From positions 1 through 22,008 of IMG/VR virus record IMGVR_UViG_3300037264_002857: a DNA stretch of 22,008 bases. One strand, 5' to 3'. Every line of letters starts with the position of its first letter. The first letter of the stretch is position 1. Below the pieces are notes generated by a model. That model saw only the letters and a program-made list of their open reading frames with translations, was not told where the DNA came from and made no database searches. This DNA is from a virus. Of the stretch, positions 1,596-22,008 are shown piece after piece. The translations under genes and the position numbers were made by a program.

Positions 1596-3860
1596 TCACG
1601 CGGCGGCCCTTGCCGCAACGAGGTGAACGGTGATGGGGATGAAGTTCACCGGCAGAACCGGCGCGATCTCCACGCTGATCGGGAACACGTCCCCGATCTG
1701 CTCGACCGTGAGGGCACGGTAGTCGAAGATGATCTCCTCGTCGATCATCCGCGAAAGCTCGTCGTTCGCGAGCGACTTCAGCGCAGCAGCGGTACCACGG
1801 AGCCCTCGCGAACCGATGCGGCGATCGAGGCCGGTGCGAAGCCGGAAGACCGCCGTGTTCGCCGACTCGTTCGCCGACATCTCGCTGAAGACGACGTTGT
1901 CGTCGGCGAGGTAGGTCGTGAGCGAGCGGACGAAGCGGATTCCGATGTTGTCCACCTTCTCGGAGAACATGAGCCCCGCGTCGAGCAGTTCGTCGCCGTT
2001 GTCCTCGCTCGTCCACGAGGTGTCCTGCCGCGTGTCGGTGACGAGCGGCAGCTTGCGGGTGAGCGGCTCACCGATGGGCGAGCCTGCCTGCATCCCGGCG
2101 GCGATGACCGCGTACATCCACGATCGGTAGAACGTGGCCTGCCCGGTGTCCGGGTCGAACCGCTGCGGCTCCTGCGCGAGCGCGCTGATGTGGCGGCTCT
2201 GGACCTGTTGGATGAGCGTCTTGATCCGCGCGAGGTCGGGAGGCGCGGTCTGCGCGACGTTCTCCAGCCCGATGTAGCCGTTTGCCTCGCTGCGCAGCTT
2301 GCCGGCGCGCTCGATGAGGTGCGTGAGCAAGAGGGACGCCACAGCGGGGTCGCCCGTGAGCGGCACGATGATGTTCACGCGACGCTTCTTCAGCAGCGTG
2401 AACGCGGTCTGGTACTCGGTGATCGTCGGCACCCCCTCGATGGCGCCGCCCAAAAACACGGGGGCCGGCGTGTTCGCCGGGACCATGACTCCGTTCGGCG
2501 ACGCGAGCCTCGTGCCGCCGACGAACGCGGAGGACGAGTTCAGGATCTCGATGAAGTAGAACAGGTCAGCCGTGAGCACGCCGGGGCCCGGCGTGGCCGA
2601 GACGGCAGCCAGCGTCCGATCGAAGTCGCTCGGGAGGAACGTGGTCGGATTCGCGACCTCGCTGGTCGCCGTGAATCCTGTGAGTTGGTTGATGCCGTCG
2701 AGGAGCTTCTGGACGGTGTTCACCGTCGAATGCGCGAAGGTCACCGACCCGGCCTCGGTGACGGTCCTCGCGACCGGCACGTCGCCGAGTTCGATCTGCG
2801 TGATCGAGGAGAACACGGCGGTCGCAGGAACCACCAACAGGAGGCTGGCCTTCACCACGAGGTCGGTGTTCGTCGCGCTCTTCCCACGGATGACCGCGAT
2901 GGCCGCGACGAGCACGTCCACGGAGATTGCGAGCGCGGACGCGACCGGCATCGCCGTGATGGTGAGCAGTCCGCGCGTCAGCACGCCGGGCGCGAGGGAG
3001 AAGACGGTGATCGGGCTCGTGTCGGCGACCGTCACGGTGCCGATGGTCGCCGCGCTCTTCCGACAGCCGGTGACCTTGGAGAACACCTGCGTGCCTGCGA
3101 CGGGCGTGAGCCCGTTCAGCGTCCGCGTCTCGCTCACCGGGAGCGTGGCCGCGTCGAGACCGTAGAGCGTCACGGTCTGCGTGATGTCGCCCGCGTCGCT
3201 CGACACGTAGGTGACCGTGAGCGGCGCGCTCATGTCGGCGGTCCGCTCGTTCACGAGCCCGATGTCCGCGCGTGTGAGGTTCAGCCTCACGCTCGCGGCG
3301 AGGGATTCGAGCGAAGCCGAATCCCACTGCCCGGCCGCCGCAGGGTACGCGACGGAGAGCGTGTCGAGCCCGCCCACGTCGTCGAAGTCCTCGACGGTCC
3401 CTTCGAACTGCACCGTGATGCGCTTGCCGAGCGTCGTGCCGGTCGCGACCTCGACGCTGATCTGATTCGTGAAGGCGCCGTAGTCCTTCGACGTGAGCAG
3501 CACGGACGGTGTCGGCGTGCTGTCGGGCAAGGTCGCCGTCGCCTGGGTCGCCGGATTCACCTTCACGGCGACGAGGCGCTGCGCGCCACCGGGGATCGCT
3601 GGGTCGTTCGCCGGCTGGAAGGCAAACTGCCCTGCGGTGCGCAGGTTGCCCGAGCGGTACCGGGTGAGCACCGTCTCGGAGCGCGTGTGGTCGCTGTCCA
3701 CCGGATCGACCGAGAGAGGCTTGCCTCCCTCGGCGGTCCCGATGATCGCGACGATGCCTACTGCGGCGGGGCTGACCGACGCGAGCGCGCTCGCATCGAT
3801 CTTGGAGTACGCGCCGGGGCGCACGATCCGCTGGCCGTTGAAGAAGATTGCTGTCGGCAT
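1596..3860 (-). CDS. Tail sheath protein
   Basis: A 754-residue protein starting at ATG 3860 after GAGAGGAAACC. The sheath surrounds the tail tube and contracts to drive it through the cell envelope. Sheath hallmarks are an N-terminal PGAYSKIDAS stretch (15-24) followed by a short hydrophobic strand and GTAEGG (41-46), a SKDYGAFTNQISV segment near 124-136, and a conserved-looking C-terminal third (about 500-754) containing ISALAQEPQRFDPDTGQ, GSPIGEPLTRKLPLV and strands ending FIPITVHLVA, which in known sheaths forms the inner ring and handshake arms. At 754 residues it is well above the common 380-500, so roughly residues 150-440 (Thr/Val-rich, beta) are probably an extra surface domain. It is followed by the tail tube gene, as in other myoviruses. 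Confidence 0.93.
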   Translation of the reverse strand: MPTAIFFNGQRIVRPGAYSKIDASALASVSPAAVGIVAIIGTAEGGKPLSVDPVDSDHTRSETVLTRYRSGNLRTAGQFAFQPANDPAIPGGAQRLVAVKVNPATQATATLPDSTPTPSVLLTSKDYGAFTNQISVEVATGTTLGKRITVQFEGTVEDFDDVGGLDTLSVAYPAAAGQWDSASLESLAASVRLNLTRADIGLVNERTADMSAPLTVTYVSSDAGDITQTVTLYGLDAATLPVSETRTLNGLTPVAGTQVFSKVTGCRKSAATIGTVTVADTSPITVFSLAPGVLTRGLLTITAMPVASALAISVDVLVAAIAVIRGKSATNTDLVVKASLLLVVPATAVFSSITQIELGDVPVARTVTEAGSVTFAHSTVNTVQKLLDGINQLTGFTATSEVANPTTFLPSDFDRTLAAVSATPGPGVLTADLFYFIEILNSSSAFVGGTRLASPNGVMVPANTPAPVFLGGAIEGVPTITEYQTAFTLLKKRRVNIIVPLTGDPAVASLLLTHLIERAGKLRSEANGYIGLENVAQTAPPDLARIKTLIQQVQSRHISALAQEPQRFDPDTGQATFYRSWMYAVIAAGMQAGSPIGEPLTRKLPLVTDTRQDTSWTSEDNGDELLDAGLMFSEKVDNIGIRFVRSLTTYLADDNVVFSEMSANESANTAVFRLRTGLDRRIGSRGLRGTAAALKSLANDELSRMIDEEIIFDYRALTVEQIGDVFPISVEIAPVLPVNFIPITVHLVAARAAA

Positions 3861-13056: not shown

Positions 13057-14481
13057 TCAGGGGACGATCGAGGACGGCAGGCTGCCAGCGAGGCGGCCGA
13101 CGTTCTTCAGGACGATGTTCTTCGCGGGCGTGTACATCTTCACGCCGCCGTAGAGCACCTGCGCCCAGCGGATCGACGTGTCGATCGCGGCGAGCGGGAT
13201 GCGCGTCATCGGGAGAAGCTGCGACCACGAGAAGCTGCGCGCGTTCTGCATGAGCATGAACGCCTTCGACGTGCCGGGGATGTCGCTGTTCAGGTCGGTC
13301 ACGACCTGAGTCGCGCCCGTCCGCGCGATGCGCACCATGAGGCGCGCGTCCGCCGCCGCTCCACCGGGGGTCGTCCGGTAGATTTCGTAGAAGCTCGCGT
13401 TCGGCGGGCCTCCATCGGCGATGGTGAACATCACGCCGTCACCGGACGCGACCACGACCGCAGCCGAGTTCAGCGGAATCGAGAGACCGAAGCGGTTGCC
13501 GGCGACGACGCGGTAAATGTACGAGCCCGCGTCCGCAGCGATGAAGAGCGAGCCCGCCGCCGGAGCCGCCACGGGGGCGACCGTGATGAGCGGAGCCGCA
13601 GCGCGCTTCGTGGTCGAGGCGAGACCGGCCGCGAGCGCCGTCTGTCCCTCGGTGATGAAGACGTGGTCGTGCAGGTTGACCTTGCCGTGCTGGCCCTGGA
13701 ACGCCGTCACCTGCGCGCCGAGCACGCCGGGCGCCGGAGCGACCCCGAAGCGCTGGCGGTCGTAGACCTGCTTCGCGAGGTCCGCGAACGGCCCGGTGCC
13801 CGAGTAGAAGTCGGTGCCCATGCCGAAGTTGTCGCGGATCTGGAGCAACGAGTCGTTCATCACCTCTTCGGTGAGCGGCCCGCCGCGAAGGTCCACGACG
13901 TTGTTCGGAGCGCCGACCGTGATCAGGCGTTCCAGCCCGTCCACCTGCTCGGGGATGAGGCTGCTGTCGCCGAAGAACAGCGCGTTCTCCAGTTGCTTCA
14001 GAAGCTCCATCGTCTTGTTCATCGTCTCCAGGCCGATCACGTTGCCGTGCGCGGCGCGGATCGTGTTCGCGACGTGGGTCACGCGACCGACCACGCCCAG
14101 GAACTTGATCTGCATCGTGATGCGCTCGTAGGTCGAGTCCTCCTCCTCGGGGAGGTCGCCCTCCGTCATCCAGCCCAGGTTGAAGCGACGCGAGCCGCCC
14201 TTGCCGTAGGAGAGGAGCCGGTTGAACTCTTCGACCGTGTTGGTGGCGGGCACCTTCGGGATGGTCTTGAAGAGCTTGATCTCGTCCATCTCGTAGGTGA
14301 GCACCTTCAGCGTCGCCTCCAGCGACTCGGTGCGGAGGGGGAATCCCTCACCGGGGACGACGGCAGGCGCGTTGACGCTGTCGCCAGCGTAGAGTGCCTT
14401 GCGGAGTGCTGCGATCTCGTCGGGACTCGACGAGCCGAAGCCGCCGTAGTCGCGCGCGGAGACGAAGGGGGTCGTGTTCAT
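13057..14481 (-). CDS. Major capsid protein with probable Ig/FN3-like insertion
   Basis: A 474-residue protein starting at ATG 14481 behind AGGAGAG. It follows protease and scaffold genes, the usual head order. The HK97 fold is not provable by eye, but several features fit a major capsid protein: residues 60-110 with YEMDEIKLFKTIPKVPATNT and a GWMTEGDLPEEEDSTYER loop, a helix GLETMNKTMELLKQLENAL (150-168), then LFFGDS, and a C-terminal part with MTRIPLAAIDTSIRWAQVLYGGVKMYTPAKN. Around residues 295-405 lies an Ala/Val-rich stretch with SYIYRVVAGNRFGLSIP and FYEIYRTTPGG, an FN3/Ig-like domain pattern, apparently inserted in the peripheral part of the fold and likely displayed on the capsid surface. 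Length is compatible with this insertion. Confidence 0.9.
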   Translation of the reverse strand: MNTTPFVSARDYGGFGSSSPDEIAALRKALYAGDSVNAPAVVPGEGFPLRTESLEATLKVLTYEMDEIKLFKTIPKVPATNTVEEFNRLLSYGKGGSRRFNLGWMTEGDLPEEEDSTYERITMQIKFLGVVGRVTHVANTIRAAHGNVIGLETMNKTMELLKQLENALFFGDSSLIPEQVDGLERLITVGAPNNVVDLRGGPLTEEVMNDSLLQIRDNFGMGTDFYSGTGPFADLAKQVYDRQRFGVAPAPGVLGAQVTAFQGQHGKVNLHDHVFITEGQTALAAGLASTTKRAAAPLITVAPVAAPAAGSLFIAADAGSYIYRVVAGNRFGLSIPLNSAAVVVASGDGVMFTIADGGPPNASFYEIYRTTPGGAAADARLMVRIARTGATQVVTDLNSDIPGTSKAFMLMQNARSFSWSQLLPMTRIPLAAIDTSIRWAQVLYGGVKMYTPAKNIVLKNVGRLAGSLPSSIVP

Positions 14482-14526: not shown

Positions 14527-15543
14527 TCAGCGGTAAGACCGCGCCTTCTGGGTCTCGCCGGGGTGCTGCCGCAGGAAGCTCTCGATGGCTCCCACCGTCT
14601 CCGGCGCGATCACGTTGCCCCCTTCGAAGAGGCCGATGACCTCTCGCGTGGACGGCCCGTTGATCTCCTTCACGCCCTTCTCCAACAGCATGTAGGAGAG
14701 GGTGTTCAGAATCTCGCTCTTGCCGAGCCGCCCGCCGCCCGAGCCGGCCTCGCCGGGCATCGACTTCGCGAGCGCCTGCGCTCGCGTCGGGCTCTGCACG
14801 CCGCGCGCGGGCGCGGGCTGCGTCTCGACGAGGCCGAGCCGCTGACCGAGCGCGTTGATGACCTGTGCCTGGCTCTTCACGAGCTTGCCGGTCTGCCAGA
14901 GCGCGGCGGCGAACGCGCGGTTCACCTTGCGCTGCTCGACGTGGCCTCCGTGGATGCCCTTCGCGAGCGAGTCCATCTGCTCGGCGACACGTCCGGTCAT
15001 CGCCTCCAGATACGACGACACGTCGATCGCGTCGCTGATGTCCGAATCCGCGCGGAGCGCGTCGATGCTCTTCGTGAGCGGCTCCCCCTCGGAGTAGGCG
15101 GCGCTCTTCTTCGCGAACGGGGGCATCGACGGCTTGCCCGCCATCTTGCCGTGAGGCGCGGGGCGCGAGTGCTGGAAGAAGCCGCCGCCGGCCTCGCCCG
15201 ACATCTCGTCCGCGTCCTCCTCCGCGTCCTCCTCGGAGTCCTCTTCCTCTTCCTCCTCGCCCTCGTCCTTCGCCGACATGAACGCGGCGATCTGCGGAGC
15301 CGAGAAGCCAGCATCGGCGAGGGCGGACATCACGGTCTGCTCCATCTTGCCGATCATCATGTTGTCGAGGCCGCCCTCGTCGGAGCGATCCGCGCCGCCG
15401 CCGCCGCCCTTGCCGCGCTCGTCGTAGCGACCGGAGTAATCGAGGTTCACGCCGTTCCCCTTCACGAGGTCCGTCGCATCCGCCGCCTTCACGAGTTCCG
15501 AGAGGCTCGCCTCCAGCCCGCTCACGTCCACCTGATTCTCCAT
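14527..15543 (-). CDS. Capsid scaffold-like protein, acidic
   Basis: A 338-residue protein starting at ATG 15543 behind GAAGGAGAAGAGGAC. It lies between protease and capsid genes, the normal location of scaffolding protein, which guides capsid assembly and is later removed. It has a Gly run (45-50), a very acidic stretch (93-113, runs of Glu/Asp), then Met/Lys/Pro-rich linkers and helical regions (SYLEAMTGRVAEQMDSLAKGI, SQAQVINALGQRLGL, a C-terminal helix ending HPGETQKARSYR). This low-complexity, charged and helical pattern fits a scaffold that the adjacent protease would cleave. It has no recognisable enzyme motif. It could also be an unrelated head protein, but context makes scaffold the best call. 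Confidence 0.75.
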   Translation of the reverse strand: MENQVDVSGLEASLSELVKAADATDLVKGNGVNLDYSGRYDERGKGGGGGADRSDEGGLDNMMIGKMEQTVMSALADAGFSAPQIAAFMSAKDEGEEEEEEDSEEDAEEDADEMSGEAGGGFFQHSRPAPHGKMAGKPSMPPFAKKSAAYSEGEPLTKSIDALRADSDISDAIDVSSYLEAMTGRVAEQMDSLAKGIHGGHVEQRKVNRAFAAALWQTGKLVKSQAQVINALGQRLGLVETQPAPARGVQSPTRAQALAKSMPGEAGSGGGRLGKSEILNTLSYMLLEKGVKEINGPSTREVIGLFEGGNVIAPETVGAIESFLRQHPGETQKARSYR

Positions 15544-15558: not shown

Positions 15559-16308
15559 TCAGGCGGCGGGGTGCCACCGGACCGCGTACTCGACGATGCG
15601 CTCGGCCTTCGCTCGATTGAGCGAGGGTCGAAGCGACAGCAGGAAGTCCACCGCTTCGCTCTTGCCCATGCGGGCCTTCACGTTGCGGAGCTTCTTCTTC
15701 GGATCCTTCGGGGTCGGGCGCGCAGAGCGCACGCCCTCCAGCGCCTTCGGCGCGATGATCGCGGCGTCGCTCGCGGGCACGCCCGCAGTCGGGGGATTCG
15801 CGCCGACCGCGAGGCTCTTCGCGAGCACGGAGAGCGAGGTGTTCGTGTTCACCGGGCACTTCGTGATCGCGACCTCGCGCACGACTGCCTTGCGGACGGT
15901 CTTCGGGTCGTCCGGGTCGCGCTCGCCGATCGAGCCCTCGACGCTGAAGCCGAGCTTCCGGCCGGAGCCCGAGCGCTGAAGCTCGGTCGCGAGATCCCAG
16001 ATGCGATTCCCGCGATCCGTCTTCAAGAGGTAGCCCTCGACGTACCAGCCCTTCCGGCCATCGGGTAGGTGCCGAAGCTCGGCCTTCTCCGGGTAGCCGA
16101 CGACGCTGTCGGTCGCCGAGTCGTGGTTGTCGTTGAACCAGCCGCCCTTCAGGAACGGCGAGAAGTCGAGGCCCTCCTGAAGGAGGATCTCGCTCTGACG
16201 ATCGAGGTGGTCCGTGGACACGATTCCGCCGATGCGGCGTTCGGTCCCTTCCGGGCTCGCCTTTTCGAAGACCTCTACGTCGAGGTCGAACTGGAATCTC
16301 CGGTCCAT
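15559..16308 (-). CDS. Prohead serine protease (S78/U35-like)
   Basis: The chosen start is ATG 16308, giving 249 residues (MDRRFQFDLDVEVF...). Upstream the frame is open to 16524, but that part is Arg-rich, contains a terminator hairpin and overlaps another gene, so it is not used. Prohead proteases mature the capsid by cutting scaffold and capsid N-termini. The family pattern is visible: a first strand then RIGGIVSTDHLDRQ (25-38), GGWFNDNHDS with His62 as probable catalytic histidine, GRKLGFSVEG (116-125) with Ser122 as probable nucleophile, and EVAITKCPVNTNT (145-157), which closes the catalytic domain. The last ~60 residues (basic linker and helix NRAKAERIVEYAVRW) may be a propeptide or scaffold-like tail. 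No ribosome binding site is evident at the start. Confidence 0.85.
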   Translation of the reverse strand: MDRRFQFDLDVEVFEKASPEGTERRIGGIVSTDHLDRQSEILLQEGLDFSPFLKGGWFNDNHDSATDSVVGYPEKAELRHLPDGRKGWYVEGYLLKTDRGNRIWDLATELQRSGSGRKLGFSVEGSIGERDPDDPKTVRKAVVREVAITKCPVNTNTSLSVLAKSLAVGANPPTAGVPASDAAIIAPKALEGVRSARPTPKDPKKKLRNVKARMGKSEAVDFLLSLRPSLNRAKAERIVEYAVRWHPAA

Positions 16309-16330
16309 CTGCGCGTGCGCGTGCGGCCCG

Positions 16331-16368
16331 AAAACGAAAAGGGCGACCCAGGTCTCCCTGAGTCGCCC
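16331..16368 (-). terminator. Rho-independent terminator
   Basis: On the minus strand GGGCGACTCAGG (16357-16368) pairs with CCTGGGTCGCCC (16341-16352), 12 base pairs with one G-T(U) wobble and a GAGA (GNRA-type) tetraloop, directly followed by TTTTCGTTTT (16331-16340). It ends the helicase/zinc-ribbon block, but lies only 22 bases before the protease start codon. The plus strand has no T-run, so it is one-directional. Confidence 0.9.
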
Positions 16369-16401
16369 CTCGCTGCCTCTACAGAGGCGGGCCGTGCGGA
16401 A

Positions 16402-16431
16402 GGTATGGCAGCAATCCTTCGGTCGAGTCAA
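16402..16431 (-). promoter_or_regulatory. Possible sigma70-like promoter before the head genes
   Basis: TTGACT (16426-16431) and CATACC (16402-16407) on the minus strand are 18 bases apart; -35 fits well, -10 fits only partly. The TTGACT overlaps the stop codon of the zinc-ribbon gene. Transcripts from here would meet a GCCTCT...AGAGGC palindrome (16375-16388) and then the terminator at once. Chance similarity in a window this size is quite possible. Confidence 0.25.
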
Positions 16432-16661
16432 GCCCTCCGTAGAATCAGCCTCGGGGCGTCCGCTTTCCTGATTACGAGGGGGCCCTCGGCGAGCACGAGC
16501 GGCAGCACGATCGGCTGCCGGCACGAGAGGCAGTTCGTCTCGATGTCCACCTCGTCGCCGACCGCGCTCTTTCGAATCACGAGCACGCGCATCTTCGCCT
16601 TCAAGCGATGACCGTCACGACTCGGTTCGAACACCGCGCTCTTGCAGAAGGGGCACTGCAT
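16428..16661 (-). CDS. Small zinc-ribbon protein
   Basis: A 77-residue protein starting at ATG 16661, five bases after the previous gene's last base and without a good ribosome binding site, suggesting coupling. CPFC (residues 3-6) and CLSC (44-47) form two Cys pairs 37 residues apart, the layout of a zinc ribbon. Between them is a basic, beta-rich stretch (RLKAKMRVLVIRKSAVGDEVDI). Phage zinc-ribbon proteins of this size include Mu Com-like regulators and many unknown head-cluster proteins, so a regulatory or assembly function is possible. No DNA-binding helix is obvious. It lies between the helicase block and the terminator and is most likely the last gene of that transcription unit. Confidence 0.7.
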   Translation of the reverse strand: MQCPFCKSAVFEPSRDGHRLKAKMRVLVIRKSAVGDEVDIETNCLSCRQPIVLPLVLAEGPLVIRKADAPRLILRRA

Positions 16662-16665
16662 GGCG

Positions 16666-16959
16666 TCAGGGGATCACGACGCCGAGCATCCTCGCGTAGG
16701 ACACGAGCCCGCTCGGCAGCGGGACACCGTGCGCGAGAGCCCCGCGAAAGACAGCGACCCACATGCGCTTGATGTCCTCGGGCCCGTGCCAGCGCGTCAG
16801 CACCGGCTCGTAGTTGCGGAGCCAGTTCAATCGCTTGAAGGCAACGTCCTCGCCCGTGATGCGCGCGAAGGACTCCACATCGATCGGCCCGGTCGGTGAC
16901 CCGCCGAACGGGCCGATGAATGCGTCGGTCGGCAAGAGTTGGCGGCCCAGCAGCGGCAT
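16666..16959 (-). CDS. Small unknown protein after the helicase
   Basis: I place the start at ATG 16959, right after the helicase stop (TGAGATG) and behind GGGGAGG, giving 97 residues. A longer reading from 17016 would overlap the helicase and has a poor N-terminus. I do not recognise the protein. It has GPFGGSPTGPIDVE near the start, then a helical centre (DVAFKRLNWLRNYEPVLTRW) and PEDIKRMWVAVFRGALAHGV, ending in a hydrophobic SYARMLGVVIP. It has no cysteine pairs, membrane segment or signal peptide. Because it is tightly coupled to the helicase gene it may assist that protein or belong to the head module. Confidence 0.65.
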   Translation of the reverse strand: MPLLGRQLLPTDAFIGPFGGSPTGPIDVESFARITGEDVAFKRLNWLRNYEPVLTRWHGPEDIKRMWVAVFRGALAHGVPLPSGLVSYARMLGVVIP

Positions 16960-16960
16960 C

Positions 16961-19900
16961 TCACGCCTCCCCGCGCAGGACGCGCGTTGGAATGAAGAAT
17001 CGGGTGTAGGGCTCACTCTTCTTCGCTGTTGCGGTGCGGGGGATCGGCACGCTCTTCCGAGAGCCCGACTTCTTGCCCGATGCCTTCGCGGCTGCGCGCG
17101 CGTCGCGCGCCTTCGCCTCGGCGGCGATCCTCTCGGGGAGGATAGACACGTCTCCGAGACTGCGCGCGGTGGTCGCGAGGTAGTCGTAGTTCGTCTTGTG
17201 CGGCTGCGCCGTGCTGAAGAGACGGAGACCCGCCTCGTAAGGGACCATCTTCGCGCGCCCCTGCATGAGTTGGGATCGCTCGGGCATCGTCGGGGATTCG
17301 ACCGTCCATTCCCCGCTGGGGATCATCATCCGCTTCTTCTTGCCCGTCTCCGGGTCTGTTCGGACGATCTCCTTCATCTCCGGCACGTTCACGGAGGTCG
17401 TGAGGCGCTTCACGTCGATGAGGTACATGCGTGCGCGCAGGATCCGAGCTTCGAACGCGCTGACGTGATTCCGCAGAATCTCGTTGGTTACGTCGCTCTC
17501 CTGAATCGCCTCTGGGGGGATCCAGTTGTACTTCGGCTTCGTGGGGTCTCCCTGCGCAGGGAGGTCCGGGTCAGGTACCTGGCCCTTCTGTCGAAGCTGC
17601 GTGCCGATGAGAGGGCGAAGGGCTGCGATCTTGTCCATCGCGCGCTTGGAGAAGATCGCTTCCACGATCTGATCGGCGCGCCCTCCCGGCATCTTCAGAA
17701 GCTCGTGCCTGTCGCTCTCGTCGAGGCTCTCGATCGCGTCCTCGACCGCTTGGAGCGAGTTCTCCGGCCCGTACTCCTTCAGCCCGGTTTCCGCCTCCAT
17801 CGCCGCGAGCTTCGCGTCGATCTTGGCGATGTACTTCTTCGCGGGGCCGGTGACGGCAGCGTCGAGCATCCGAGCCGCGCGGGTCATGCGCTGCCACTCG
17901 TCCATCGGCGAGAAGAGCGAGTCGTACATGATCAGCTTCGGCGCGGGCCAGTTCAGACCGACGTTCGCCGCGTCGGTCGCGATCATGCACTGCGTGTTGT
18001 TCAGGACGTACTGGTAGTGCTCGGTGAGCGGGCTGCGGCTCGACCAGTAGCGATCCGCGAGCGCGCGAAGCTCGCCGTCGATTTCCTTCTTCCGCTCGGG
18101 GCTGCCGCCGCGACGCTCCTTCTCCAACCGCGAGAACTCGGCCTTGTCCTTCGGCTTCATCTCGCTCTCGTAGAGGAAGCGCTGCTCGACGCGAGTCTCC
18201 CCGTCCGGCCCCGGAACCTCGACGGAGGTCACGCGCATCGGGACTTCCAAGCCGACCGGGTCGCCCGCCTTCGTCTTCCGAGTCGGATCTTGGAACGCGC
18301 CCTCGATGCGCGACCGCTGACCCCGGCTCCAGCCCTCTCGCATCTCGCCGACCTTCGGCGCGGCGCGCGTGCCGCCGTTCATCGTGCGGAACACGAAGAT
18401 GCTCTGCCCGGTCTTGTGCCCGAACTGGTCGAGCTTCTGCCTGAAGATTTCCGAGTTCAGGTCTCGGTTGCCGAGCGTCGCGCCCTTGCCGGCATACGTC
18501 ACGAAGTACTTTCGCGGACGCAGCGCCTTGTCCTCTGCGGTCGAGGCATCTGCGTTACCCAGCGCCTCGTTCACGTCTTGGAATCCCGACCTGCGAAGCT
18601 GGGCCTCCATCACGCGGAAGCTGCTACCCACGCGGTTGCCGAACAGAATGAACTGCTGGTCGGGTCCGAGATTGTCGTCGCGCAGCGCGTTGTCCATGTA
18701 CGCCCGCAGTTCGTCCGTCTTGGCGTTACCAGACGTGACCGCGAGGTCGAACTCCGCGCGCTGCTTCCGACGCTTCGTGGACCGCTGCACCGAGAGCGCC
18801 GGGTCGGTCGGACGCTGCTTGCCTGCGGTGTCCTTCTTCGCCTTCTTCTTCGCCCCCGGCGCACCCGACTCGTCCACGTCGCCCGTCTCGGCGCCCGTCT
18901 CGCTCTCGCCCGTGTCGTTGAAGCGGCCCGTCGAGATCCAATCCTCCTCGGCGTAGAAGAGCCCGTTCGCCTTGCTGTTGGGGTCGCGGATCCATCGCTT
19001 GCCGACCGGGATCTCCAGCGTGTGCTTCACGCCACCCACCATCGTCTCCTCCACGATGGGCAGGATCTTGCCGTCGTCACCCAGCACGCCGCGCGAGATC
19101 ATGCCCTCGGGCCCGTAGTCGGGATTCACGACGGCGCCCCACGGTGCGCCCGTGGGCGTGAAGTAGTCGCCGCGCTTCACGCCATCGAGGAGATCCTTCG
19201 GAATCGCCTTCCCCTCGACGCTCTCGTAGGTCACGCCGAACAGGCGCTCGTAGTACTCCTTCAGCACGGTGTGGTAGCCCTGCTCGACGACGCCGTTCTC
19301 CACGTCCTTGAACGTCGGCCACTTCCCGCCCCAGCCCTCGGGCTTCGCCGTCGTCATCATCGCGTGCGAGGGCAGGATGAACTGCCTCGTGACGCGCGTC
19401 TCGCTGATCTTCCCGGTCTTCGTCTCCGTAGTCACGACCGACTCGTAGGTGAGCGTCTCGCGCTGGTCGGGCGCCTTGTACGCGAGGCAGTTGGAAATCG
19501 AGCGCGCGACGTTCACCTTGCGGCGCCCGTCCGCACCCAGCGCGTAGGTCTCGTCGGAACCGATCGCCCCCGACTGCTCCATGAGCTTCTGCTCTTCGGG
19601 AGTGAACCGCGCCATCGAGAGCCGGTGCATCCGCGCCTGCTGCCCGATCATGTGCGCCGGCTTGTTCTCGTCGAGCAGCACGTTGGGCATCGTCTTGCCC
19701 TTCACGTCCTGCGTCGTCGCGATGTGCATGAGCGGGTAGAGGAGCGCCGAAAGCTCGCCCACCCTCTGCGGGTTCAGATCGGTCAGCGGAGGATTCTTGC
19801 TGCCCGCCTTCTTCATCACGGCAGAGCCCACGAGGTACCGCTCCGCGAACTCTTCCTCGGAGCCGAGATCCACGCGCCCCGCCGTCACCAGGCGCACCAT

Positions 19901-22008
19901 GCGCGGGAGCACCGAGAAGGTGTCGGTGATCGGCGTGCCACTCAGCGCGAGGAACATATTCATGTCCGGGTTCCACCGCTCGACAGCGCGACTGATCTCG
20001 TTGTCGTTGGCGATGTTGTGCGCTTCGTCCACGACCATGCCGTCGAAGAGCCCCGTGGCCTTCATAAGCTCGTTGTGGTCGCGGAAGTACTCGTAGCCGA
20101 TCACGACGCCCTGATTCTCGTCGGCCCACGGGTTCCAGATCGTAGGGTCGTGCTTGACGGCTCCCTTCCACTCTCGGAGAGCGCGCTCGATGTACGCCTC
20201 CTGCGATTCGCTCTTCCCCTGCGCGGGAGGCGGGAACATTCGCAGCGCGCCTGCCACAGCGCCCGTGCCGACCAGAGTCGCCGGCTTCCCGGTGAAGGCG
20301 AGGATCTCGTCCTCCCAGTTGTTCGGGACGTTCGGCGGGACGACGTAGATGACCTTCTTCTTGACCCGATTCGGATGCGGCTTCCCCGGATCGTCCTTGA
20401 CGGTCAGGTTCCGCATCATCTGCGCTGCTGCGATGGCGAGCGCGGTCTTGCCGGTGCCCATGAAGTGCGCGGCGTAGAGGCGGCCACCGTTCGCTGCGAG
20501 ACGCTGGAGCGCCTCGATGCGATGCGGCCCCGGCTGCATCCCGTTCGGGCCCGAGACCATGCCCTTCAGCACGCCCTCGGGGTTGATGTTGCCGTCCGCG
20601 TCCACGAGGTCTTCCGGCGCGGGCCACGGGGCTCCCGTAGAGCGCACGGTGAACTCCCTCGCGAGAGTCTGCTGCTCGTCCATCATCGCCGCAGCGCGCG
20701 CTTCCATCACGAAGCCGCCGATCGCAGCGCGGAACTCAGGCAAGTCCTTCGGAGAGATCACGAGTTCGATGCCGGGGCCCATCTCGCCGACGACCGTCAC
20801 GCCGCGCTTCCGCTTCCTCGGGGGCAGGCCGATCATCCGCACGCCGGGCATCGTGGAGAGGTGCGCCAGCGAGATGCTGCCGTCCGAAGGGGCCAGAATC
20901 TTCATCACACCGCTCGTGCTGCGGTCGGTGCTGCCTCGGCGCACCTCGTCGGCGTACAGAAGCACGTCGCGCTTCAGAGGCTCGACGAATCGCTTCTCGA
21001 CGGTGGGCCTGCCGGGAAGCTCGCTCTCGTCGGTCGCAGAGACGCGCGTCGTCGTCATGCGGCCCTTCGGGAGCCCGGCTCCCTGGCCGGGGAGTACCTG
21101 CACGACGTAGGCGCGCTTCGTCTTGCCCTTCTCCGTGTAGTCCTTGCGCTCGACGAAGCGCGCCATCACGCGCTTCGCGACCCCGTGGTGGTTCGTCGCC
21201 GTGACCCAGACCAGCGCGTGCTTCTTGATCTTGCGCCGCGTCGGCGCGTTGACCTTCACCCCGCCCACCCCGACGATCTCGTCCATGCGATCGATGATCT
21301 GATCGATGCGAACGCGGTCCGACATCGGCAGCCCGAGCTTCCGATTCCAGTACGTGCCCTTCACGCGCGGAGGCCCAGCGCCGTCGAACTCCACTTCGAA
21401 GTGGACGATCGCGTCGCCCTTCTTCGAAGGGACACTCACCCAGGTGCTCGGAGGCTGCGGCTGCGACGCCGCCAGGCGCATGAGGCGCTGAATGTCGAAC
21501 AGATCGCGGATGACCTCGCCGCTCGGGTTGATCAGTTGCGCGAAGAGCGGGTCGGTGAACTGCCCGCGCGCGAACTTCGCGTTGCGGCGCAGAAGCGATT
21601 CCACGTCCACCTTGAACTTGCGCGCGAGCGACGCGGGAGAAATCTCCCCGTCTTCCGACGAGAGCTTGTAGGGAAGCCACTCCGTCGCCAGCTTGCCCTC
21701 CTTGGTCTTCACCTGGGCGGGCGCGAGAATCGTCTGTCCTGCGGCGAAGGGGTCCGACTCGCAGACGGTGAGCCGGAGGGTGGTCCCGTCCGGGTTCGTC
21801 TGCTCGTAGACCGTCGCAGTCCGCAGTGGTTCGAACTTGCCAGTGGTCGGATCGAGCGCGGTGAGGATCTTGGACGTGCGCGTCTTGTGGTCGTACTGGC
21901 GCGCGACCCACGGCTGGTACTCTGCGGGGCGGATTCCTCCGAACTTGAACGTCCCGCTCTTCTGGACGTACTCGGTGAAGTTGACCTCGACGGGAACCCA
22001 ATCGTGCC
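16961..22008 (-). CDS. Giant SF2/SNF2-like helicase (N-terminus outside window)
   Basis: An open frame of at least 1,681 codons from the window edge to the TGA at 16961-16963; the first 98 codons come before the first GTG (21712) and have no stop, so the gene begins outside. Helicase motifs, numbered from the edge: Walker A MGTGKT near residue 516 (20444-20461), DEAH near 660 (20018-20029), SGTP motif III near 689, QFILFGNRVG (motif IV-like) near 1118, ATDAANVGLNW (motif V) near 1343, QRMTRAAR (motif VI) near 1372. Motifs III and IV are about 430 residues apart, with an acidic/Lys-rich linker (ESETGAETGDVDESG, then KKKAKK), which is a large insertion. The ~500 N-terminal residues are unassigned. 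It lies next to head genes, and could be a virion-associated or antirestriction (DarB-like) protein; this is inference. Confidence 0.9.
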   Translation of the reverse strand, partial: HDWVPVEVNFTEYVQKSGTFKFGGIRPAEYQPWVARQYDHKTRTSKILTALDPTTGKFEPLRTATVYEQTNPDGTTLRLTVCESDPFAAGQTILAPAQVKTKEGKLATEWLPYKLSSEDGEISPASLARKFKVDVESLLRRNAKFARGQFTDPLFAQLINPSGEVIRDLFDIQRLMRLAASQPQPPSTWVSVPSKKGDAIVHFEVEFDGAGPPRVKGTYWNRKLGLPMSDRVRIDQIIDRMDEIVGVGGVKVNAPTRRKIKKHALVWVTATNHHGVAKRVMARFVERKDYTEKGKTKRAYVVQVLPGQGAGLPKGRMTTTRVSATDESELPGRPTVEKRFVEPLKRDVLLYADEVRRGSTDRSTSGVMKILAPSDGSISLAHLSTMPGVRMIGLPPRKRKRGVTVVGEMGPGIELVISPKDLPEFRAAIGGFVMEARAAAMMDEQQTLAREFTVRSTGAPWPAPEDLVDADGNINPEGVLKGMVSGPNGMQPGPHRIEALQRLAANGGRLYAAHFMGTGKTALAIAAAQMMRNLTVKDDPGKPHPNRVKKKVIYVVPPNVPNNWEDEILAFTGKPATLVGTGAVAGALRMFPPPAQGKSESQEAYIERALREWKGAVKHDPTIWNPWADENQGVVIGYEYFRDHNELMKATGLFDGMVVDEAHNIANDNEISRAVERWNPDMNMFLALSGTPITDTFSVLPRMVRLVTAGRVDLGSEEEFAERYLVGSAVMKKAGSKNPPLTDLNPQRVGELSALLYPLMHIATTQDVKGKTMPNVLLDENKPAHMIGQQARMHRLSMARFTPEEQKLMEQSGAIGSDETYALGADGRRKVNVARSISNCLAYKAPDQRETLTYESVVTTETKTGKISETRVTRQFILPSHAMMTTAKPEGWGGKWPTFKDVENGVVEQGYHTVLKEYYERLFGVTYESVEGKAIPKDLLDGVKRGDYFTPTGAPWGAVVNPDYGPEGMISRGVLGDDGKILPIVEETMVGGVKHTLEIPVGKRWIRDPNSKANGLFYAEEDWISTGRFNDTGESETGAETGDVDESGAPGAKKKAKKDTAGKQRPTDPALSVQRSTKRRKQRAEFDLAVTSGNAKTDELRAYMDNALRDDNLGPDQQFILFGNRVGSSFRVMEAQLRRSGFQDVNEALGNADASTAEDKALRPRKYFVTYAGKGATLGNRDLNSEIFRQKLDQFGHKTGQSIFVFRTMNGGTRAAPKVGEMREGWSRGQRSRIEGAFQDPTRKTKAGDPVGLEVPMRVTSVEVPGPDGETRVEQRFLYESEMKPKDKAEFSRLEKERRGGSPERKKEIDGELRALADRYWSSRSPLTEHYQYVLNNTQCMIATDAANVGLNWPAPKLIMYDSLFSPMDEWQRMTRAARMLDAAVTGPAKKYIAKIDAKLAAMEAETGLKEYGPENSLQAVEDAIESLDESDRHELLKMPGGRADQIVEAIFSKRAMDKIAALRPLIGTQLRQKGQVPDPDLPAQGDPTKPKYNWIPPEAIQESDVTNEILRNHVSAFEARILRARMYLIDVKRLTTSVNVPEMKEIVRTDPETGKKKRMMIPSGEWTVESPTMPERSQLMQGRAKMVPYEAGLRLFSTAQPHKTNYDYLATTARSLGDVSILPERIAAEAKARDARAAAKASGKKSGSRKSVPIPRTATAKKSEPYTRFFIPTRVLRGEA

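Follow-up and report, generated by a model that had tools for sequence, protein, structure and literature searches.

Gene content of the locus

The window (the whole stretch of DNA analysed, 22,008 bases) is a complete IMG/VR contig, and the N-terminus of the protein of most interest has therefore been taken from relatives. The genes and domains identified are as follows.

16961..22006, minus strand: gene for a giant SNF2-type ATPase/translocase (truncated at its 5' end where the contig stops; complete relatives have 2177-2512 aa)
17807..20551, minus strand: two-lobed SNF2 motor, motifs I-VI (Pfam, RAD54 profile match, Foldseek, motif positions)
18656..19930, minus strand: enlarged SNF2 insert, a 425-residue stretch from motif III to motif IV (motif positions)
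21029..21229, minus strand: small SH3/tudor-like barrel within the N-terminal part (approximate position, mapped from the model of the G001 homologue)
21509..21637, minus strand: LysM-like helix-helix stretch PASLARKFKVDVESLLRRN... (kept in relatives; LysM identity not established)
16666..16959, minus strand: small partner gene g49, ~97 aa (start codon one base past the helicase stop)
15559..16524, minus strand: prohead protease, S78-type (phrog_1028, 3.6e-47; the true start is probably downstream of the listed one)
14527..15543, minus strand: head scaffold (phrog_15087, 3e-05)
13057..14481, minus strand: major capsid protein, SPO1-like (phrog_752, 8e-85; tblastn to SPO1-group phages)
1596..3860, minus strand: contractile tail sheath, as in a myovirus (phrog_279, 8.6e-51)

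The giant open reading frame has 1,681 residues and runs off the contig. The longest stop-free run in 30 random sequences from a dinucleotide model is 516 codons. Comparison with the homologue in contig G001, the closest complete relative (105 kb, 67% identity, gene of 2,211 aa), gives conservation values of 0.745, 0.790 and 0.613 at the successive codon positions, with the minimum at the third position of the helicase frame. On both grounds it is a real gene. It encodes a large DNA-motor protein of roughly 245 kDa, the G001 homologue having a mass of 246.8 kDa. The opposite strand carries an even longer open reading frame (16814-22006, plus strand, 1,731 codons), of a kind that can mislead gene callers in GC-rich phages. 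Because the codon-position conservation matches the minus strand, this frame is rejected as a mirror of the minus-strand gene in GC-rich DNA.

The original prediction placed the helicase beside the head genes, and the relatives make this stronger than was claimed, the gene sitting there between portal and prohead protease. The complete order in G001 is terminase, several large genes, portal, a 254-aa gene, a MuF-like/zincin gene, g47 (1037 aa), helicase, g49, protease, scaffold, capsid and tail. The remaining helicase contigs keep the order helicase, protease, scaffold, capsid over the length that they cover. Coupling to two small genes had also been proposed. It holds for g49, where the junction in the window reads TGA, one base, ATG, and is not confirmed for the second.

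The SNF2 motor

The motor motifs found in the window are I (MGTGKT, residue 516), II (DEAH, 660), III (SGTP, 689), IV (QFILFGN, 1118), V (ATDAANVGLNW, 1343) and VI (EWQRMTRAAR, 1370). The expectation of a frame of at least 1,681 residues with complete SF2/SNF2-like motifs is thus borne out. The motifs are kept across relatives, the sole noted change being DEAH to DEAQ in L014/L049. Pfam matches are to SNF2-rel_dom (9e-11) and ResIII (6e-06), the PHROGs match is to phrog_62, DNA helicase (1.2e-31), and a profile built from this helicase family matches RAD54 at 6.8e-12. Foldseek matches to the AlphaFold model of the motor, which is of low confidence (pLDDT 55.6), are SNF2 remodellers, with ZorD among them. 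On its profile match and its predicted structure, the motor is of the dsDNA-translocase type. Taken as a spacing, the original figure of about 430 residues from motif III to motif IV is correct (425 measured); in SNF2 proteins some of this spacing is normal.

Relatives and distribution

The helicase gene was found in 14 contigs, a set enlarged by scans with capsid, portal and family alignment. These represent 12 distinct genes, eight of them complete (2,177-2,512 residues). A tblastn search with the window helicase gave no match among annotated phages, and none of the cultured phages in the collection carries it. A full-length homologue searched against annotated phages gave only a zincin echo, in cyanophages (E 0.7), and a scan of genome contigs for helicase relatives gave none.

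In all 14 helicase contigs (tblastn) g49 adjoins the helicase, and it was not found in the helicase-less contigs L020, L021 and L025. There is likewise no helicase match in the related contigs G003, G004 and G005 (72-109 kb, possibly incomplete), which keep the portal, MuF-zincin and capsid genes. The helicase and g49 thus behave as an optional pair, swappable among relatives.

The N-terminal region

The window copy covers the SNF2 motor back to an N-terminal linker, and the parts beyond were read from the relatives. All eight complete homologues share the same order from the N-terminus: a short tag of the form GHKY..R....GGK..Y.Y, a zincin metallopeptidase domain and the SNF2 motor. The tag is N-terminal in every one of them, for example HKYLKREPYFVGGKLRWRYWY. 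The zincin motifs HExxH and ED[FW]AE occur in seven of the eight. In the L024/L051 homologue (L024:1041-7574) the active-site motif has decayed to REVGR, and on this change the domain should be inactive. Peptidase activity is therefore not essential in every copy, and self-processing by the zincin cannot be universal.

Confidence in the AlphaFold models is low to moderate (62.5 and 55.6). A fold search with the N-terminal model, with coverage mostly of residues 102-336, matched the zincin of G001 to M34-type catalytic domains (best Z 9.9) and to PPEP-1 (8.9). This is a match of common fold and carries no information about the substrate. The SH3/tudor-like barrel (G001 residues 822-888) matched with Z 7.6 and rmsd 1.8 over 55 residues, which is near the level of a mere common arrangement. 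For the LysM-like rhythm that the original prediction had remarked on, a profile search of PDB sequences has, at the LysM-like stretch, the LysM chain 4uz2 in third row with a weak E of 0.11, and Pfam finds no LysM in the helicase at E<=1.

The original prediction suggested that the missing part might hold a methylase. This suggestion is not supported: none of the eight homologues has NPP[YFW] or the wider [NDS]PP[YFW], no methylase profile matches at E<=0.001, and in the relatives the tag and zincin stand there instead. The crude pattern also misses P1 DarB, so that the profile result weighs more than the absence of the motif. One PHROG match labelled DNA methyltransferase (E 0.01) spans only the region of helicase motif I. 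Simple HNH and PD-ExK pattern checks, which are not a full test, gave nothing convincing for a nuclease. If LPD36 is among the Pfam families, it gave no match in the N-terminal region.

A repeated hairpin tag in the head cluster

The tag is not confined to the helicase. A regular expression for the tag, in the form G[HG]KY..R.P.G.GGW.Y.Y and the helicase form, found 22 convincing copies and one doubtful one among the 507 predicted proteins of six long contigs, with copies in five of the six. Shuffled proteins gave a mean of about 0.5 copies and a maximum of 3. The expression was written after several copies had been seen, so that the count describes the data and does not serve as an independent test. 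Where the copies lie is more telling than how many there are: all 22 copies fall in genes between terminase and protease. The loci include g41, g43 and the helicase in G001 (L004-L009), G003 43384-52835, G004 84236-98253 and L047:11971-13254.

Proteins carry up to five copies (in one protein of 1413 aa), and in several cases a copy precedes a recognised domain, as in P0004, where the tag is at residue 416 and a zeta kinase at 509-690. The tag forms a β-hairpin in the AlphaFold model, and no Pfam family covers it in the proteins scanned. Lalka8_4, from a cultured Thermus myovirus that also has a DarB-like gene in its genome, begins with the same tag.

A phage that injects proteins must have some way of choosing which ones to load. 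In P1, a targeting stretch has been mapped on DarB, but the Dar proteins yielded no consensus (PMC9024508). We tentatively suggest that the tag could be a shared signal for capsid targeting or release that stands ahead of cargo domains, and by which this one group of phages would load many unrelated effectors into the head, the giant SNF2 motor included. Within one group of phages, the tag is conserved on several cargo proteins unrelated to one another and is confined in the genome to the head cluster, which makes a common loading signal testable.

Neighbouring genes

Where contigs extend over the region ahead of the helicase, a large protein of the g47 family is encoded there. In this protein the C-terminal ~730 residues stay constant, and the N-terminal part is swapped among relatives: InPase in L049, L050, L057 and L058, ART-PolyVal in L054 and GNAT in L050. 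The helicase-less L020 has GNAT and InPase in the same slot. Genes before the portal encode ddrB-ParB (L031) and zeta kinase (G001, L033).

Several individual proteins deserve mention. The protein preceding the helicase at L049:141-4004 matches the S-adenosylmethionine lyase family over residues 262-363 (E 1e-6); removal of SAM is a known antirestriction strategy of phage T3. At L054:3-4796, a polyvalent-type protein that also has ART-PolyVal matches a TMEM65-type domain (residues 746-845, E 7e-15). P0004 of G001 (L006:259-3624), upstream of the portal, has its zeta-toxin-type kinase at 5e-20 and, by eye, a ParB-like nuclease stretch. P0002 of G001 (L002:4849-7962), the 1037-aa protein before the helicase, has the conserved C-terminal 730 residues, which by eye are partly sigma-factor-like; its sigma-70-like and ART-like parts, both seen by eye, have no Pfam support. 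A second tag-like motif, GGP[YF]IGP[KR]GG.[WY]AD..H..., opens g47-slot proteins (L020:6641-7987, L031:9555-10724, G001 48024-51137); it recurs between domains in L020 and is absent from shuffled proteins.

InPase, ddrB-ParB, ART, GNAT and zeta domains have all been reported from injected polyvalent or MuF-fused proteins (PMC5512222).

Proposed function

On the basis of these observations, we consider that the helicase is probably a polyvalent-type passenger of the virion, packed with the head proteins and ejected with the genome, where it would guard the incoming DNA. Packaging followed by ejection is the best reading because the type of motor, the place of the gene and the small partner all resemble P1 DarB. 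In outline, the helicase would be made together with the head proteins and loaded into the prohead by way of its N-terminal hairpin tag, aided by g49. Either its zincin domain or the prohead protease would probably then trim it, and it would leave the head with the genome. The SNF2 motor would run on the incoming dsDNA and strip or block enzymes of host defence, restriction complexes for instance, in the manner proposed for P1 DarB, with no methylation. Given that no methylase was found, translocation and the displacement of bound enzymes would have to provide the protection.

A related possibility is that the protein is packaged and ejected, and that its motor acts in DNA entry or in early transcription with no direct role in antirestriction, by pulling the genome in, clearing nucleoid proteins or recycling host RNA polymerase as RapA does. 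A motor of the dsDNA-translocase type and the lack of a methylase would suit this, as would the constant presence of the large g47-family protein ahead of the helicase, and a RapA-like role has been proposed for SNF2 proteins of jumbo phages (PMC7824862). However, the helicase is an accessory gene, its absence from G003, G004 and G005 suiting a role that depends on host defences better than a general entry motor, and a neighbour in L049 has a SAM-lyase domain. We therefore regard a role in entry or early transcription as rather unlikely.

It is improbable that the helicase is a factor for head assembly or DNA packaging that is left behind, either in the infected cell or in the empty head. Its position inside the head operon, followed by a dedicated small gene, would be as expected, but relatives with the same capsid do without it, a separate terminase is present, and its tag is common to neighbours of effector type. 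A role as a replication or recombination helicase, placed in the late region by chance, is very improbable, despite the phrog_62 label of DNA helicase and nucleic-acid metabolism: DnaB, primase, polymerase and a UvsW-like SF2 are encoded separately in both G001 and G002 (with SbcCD and RuvC also elsewhere in G001), relatives such as G003 that keep those genes lack this one, and a replicative helicase in particular is rejected because the SNF2 motifs do not belong to a DnaB-type fold and DnaB and primase are separate.

Comparison with known systems

Zorya ZorD and DISARM DrmD give weak profile matches to the motor, and ZorD is also among the Foldseek matches noted above. Unlike the present protein they are host defence proteins, and no defence-system partners are found at the helicase locus.

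The DarB-like protein of the Thermus phage Lalka8 (PMC11437467) resembles the helicase in being the product of a giant gene of a myovirus, with the tag on the nearby Lalka8_4. It differs in having the methylase motif NPPY, and the tag sits on that other protein.

The likeness to P1 DarB with its small partner Ulx is closer. Both systems have a protein of ~250 kDa with an SNF2-type motor, a gene beside portal and protease genes, and a small gene directly downstream. Both also have an N-terminal element at the place where the capsid-targeting signal sits, which here is the tag, a candidate for that function. In P1, where about 40 copies of the 250-kDa DarB are packaged, this depends on its N-terminal 30 residues (PMC9024508), and the Dar proteins are ejected together with the DNA (PMC12810830). 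In contrast to DarB, the helicase has no methylase and has an extra zincin, there is no sequence match beyond the motor, and transcription of P1 darB runs away from the portal gene. Compared with P1 DarB and the Thermus DarB-like protein, the helicase sequence shows similarity no higher than noise, and g49, having no similarity to Ulx, is ruled out as its relative. For the proposal of a DarB-like injected, putatively antirestriction protein, the context speaks in favour (gene order, polyvalent-type neighbours, zincin, tag and separate replication genes), whereas the methylase part fell away. Because no methylase was found, the helicase is not filed as DarB; the best reading is that it would work like P1 DarB and is not itself a DarB. 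By parting the SNF2 motor from the methylase, this family raises the question of whether translocation alone protects incoming DNA.

The polyvalent proteins (Iyer et al. 2017, PMC5512222) are likewise very large and multidomain, combine a zincin with an SNF2 motor, are encoded among the head genes of portal-terminase phages, and have neighbours with InPase, ART-PolyVal, ddrB-ParB, zeta and GNAT domains. The helicase has at least two disparate domains (zincin and SNF2, in seven of the eight complete homologues), a late/virion gene location in a portal-terminase phage, and a zincin with HExxH and the downstream E. Polyvalent-associated Pfam domains, which are common and not obligatory, do not occur within it at E<=1 and occur in its neighbours. 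In polyvalent proteins, the methylase is nearly always fused to an SNF2 motor (PMC5512222), whereas the SNF2 motor here has no adenine methylase and comes with the short tag and a small partner dedicated to it, neither of which was found in that work. The helicase matches the class of polyvalent proteins, as a variant that lacks the methylase and has a tag and its own partner.
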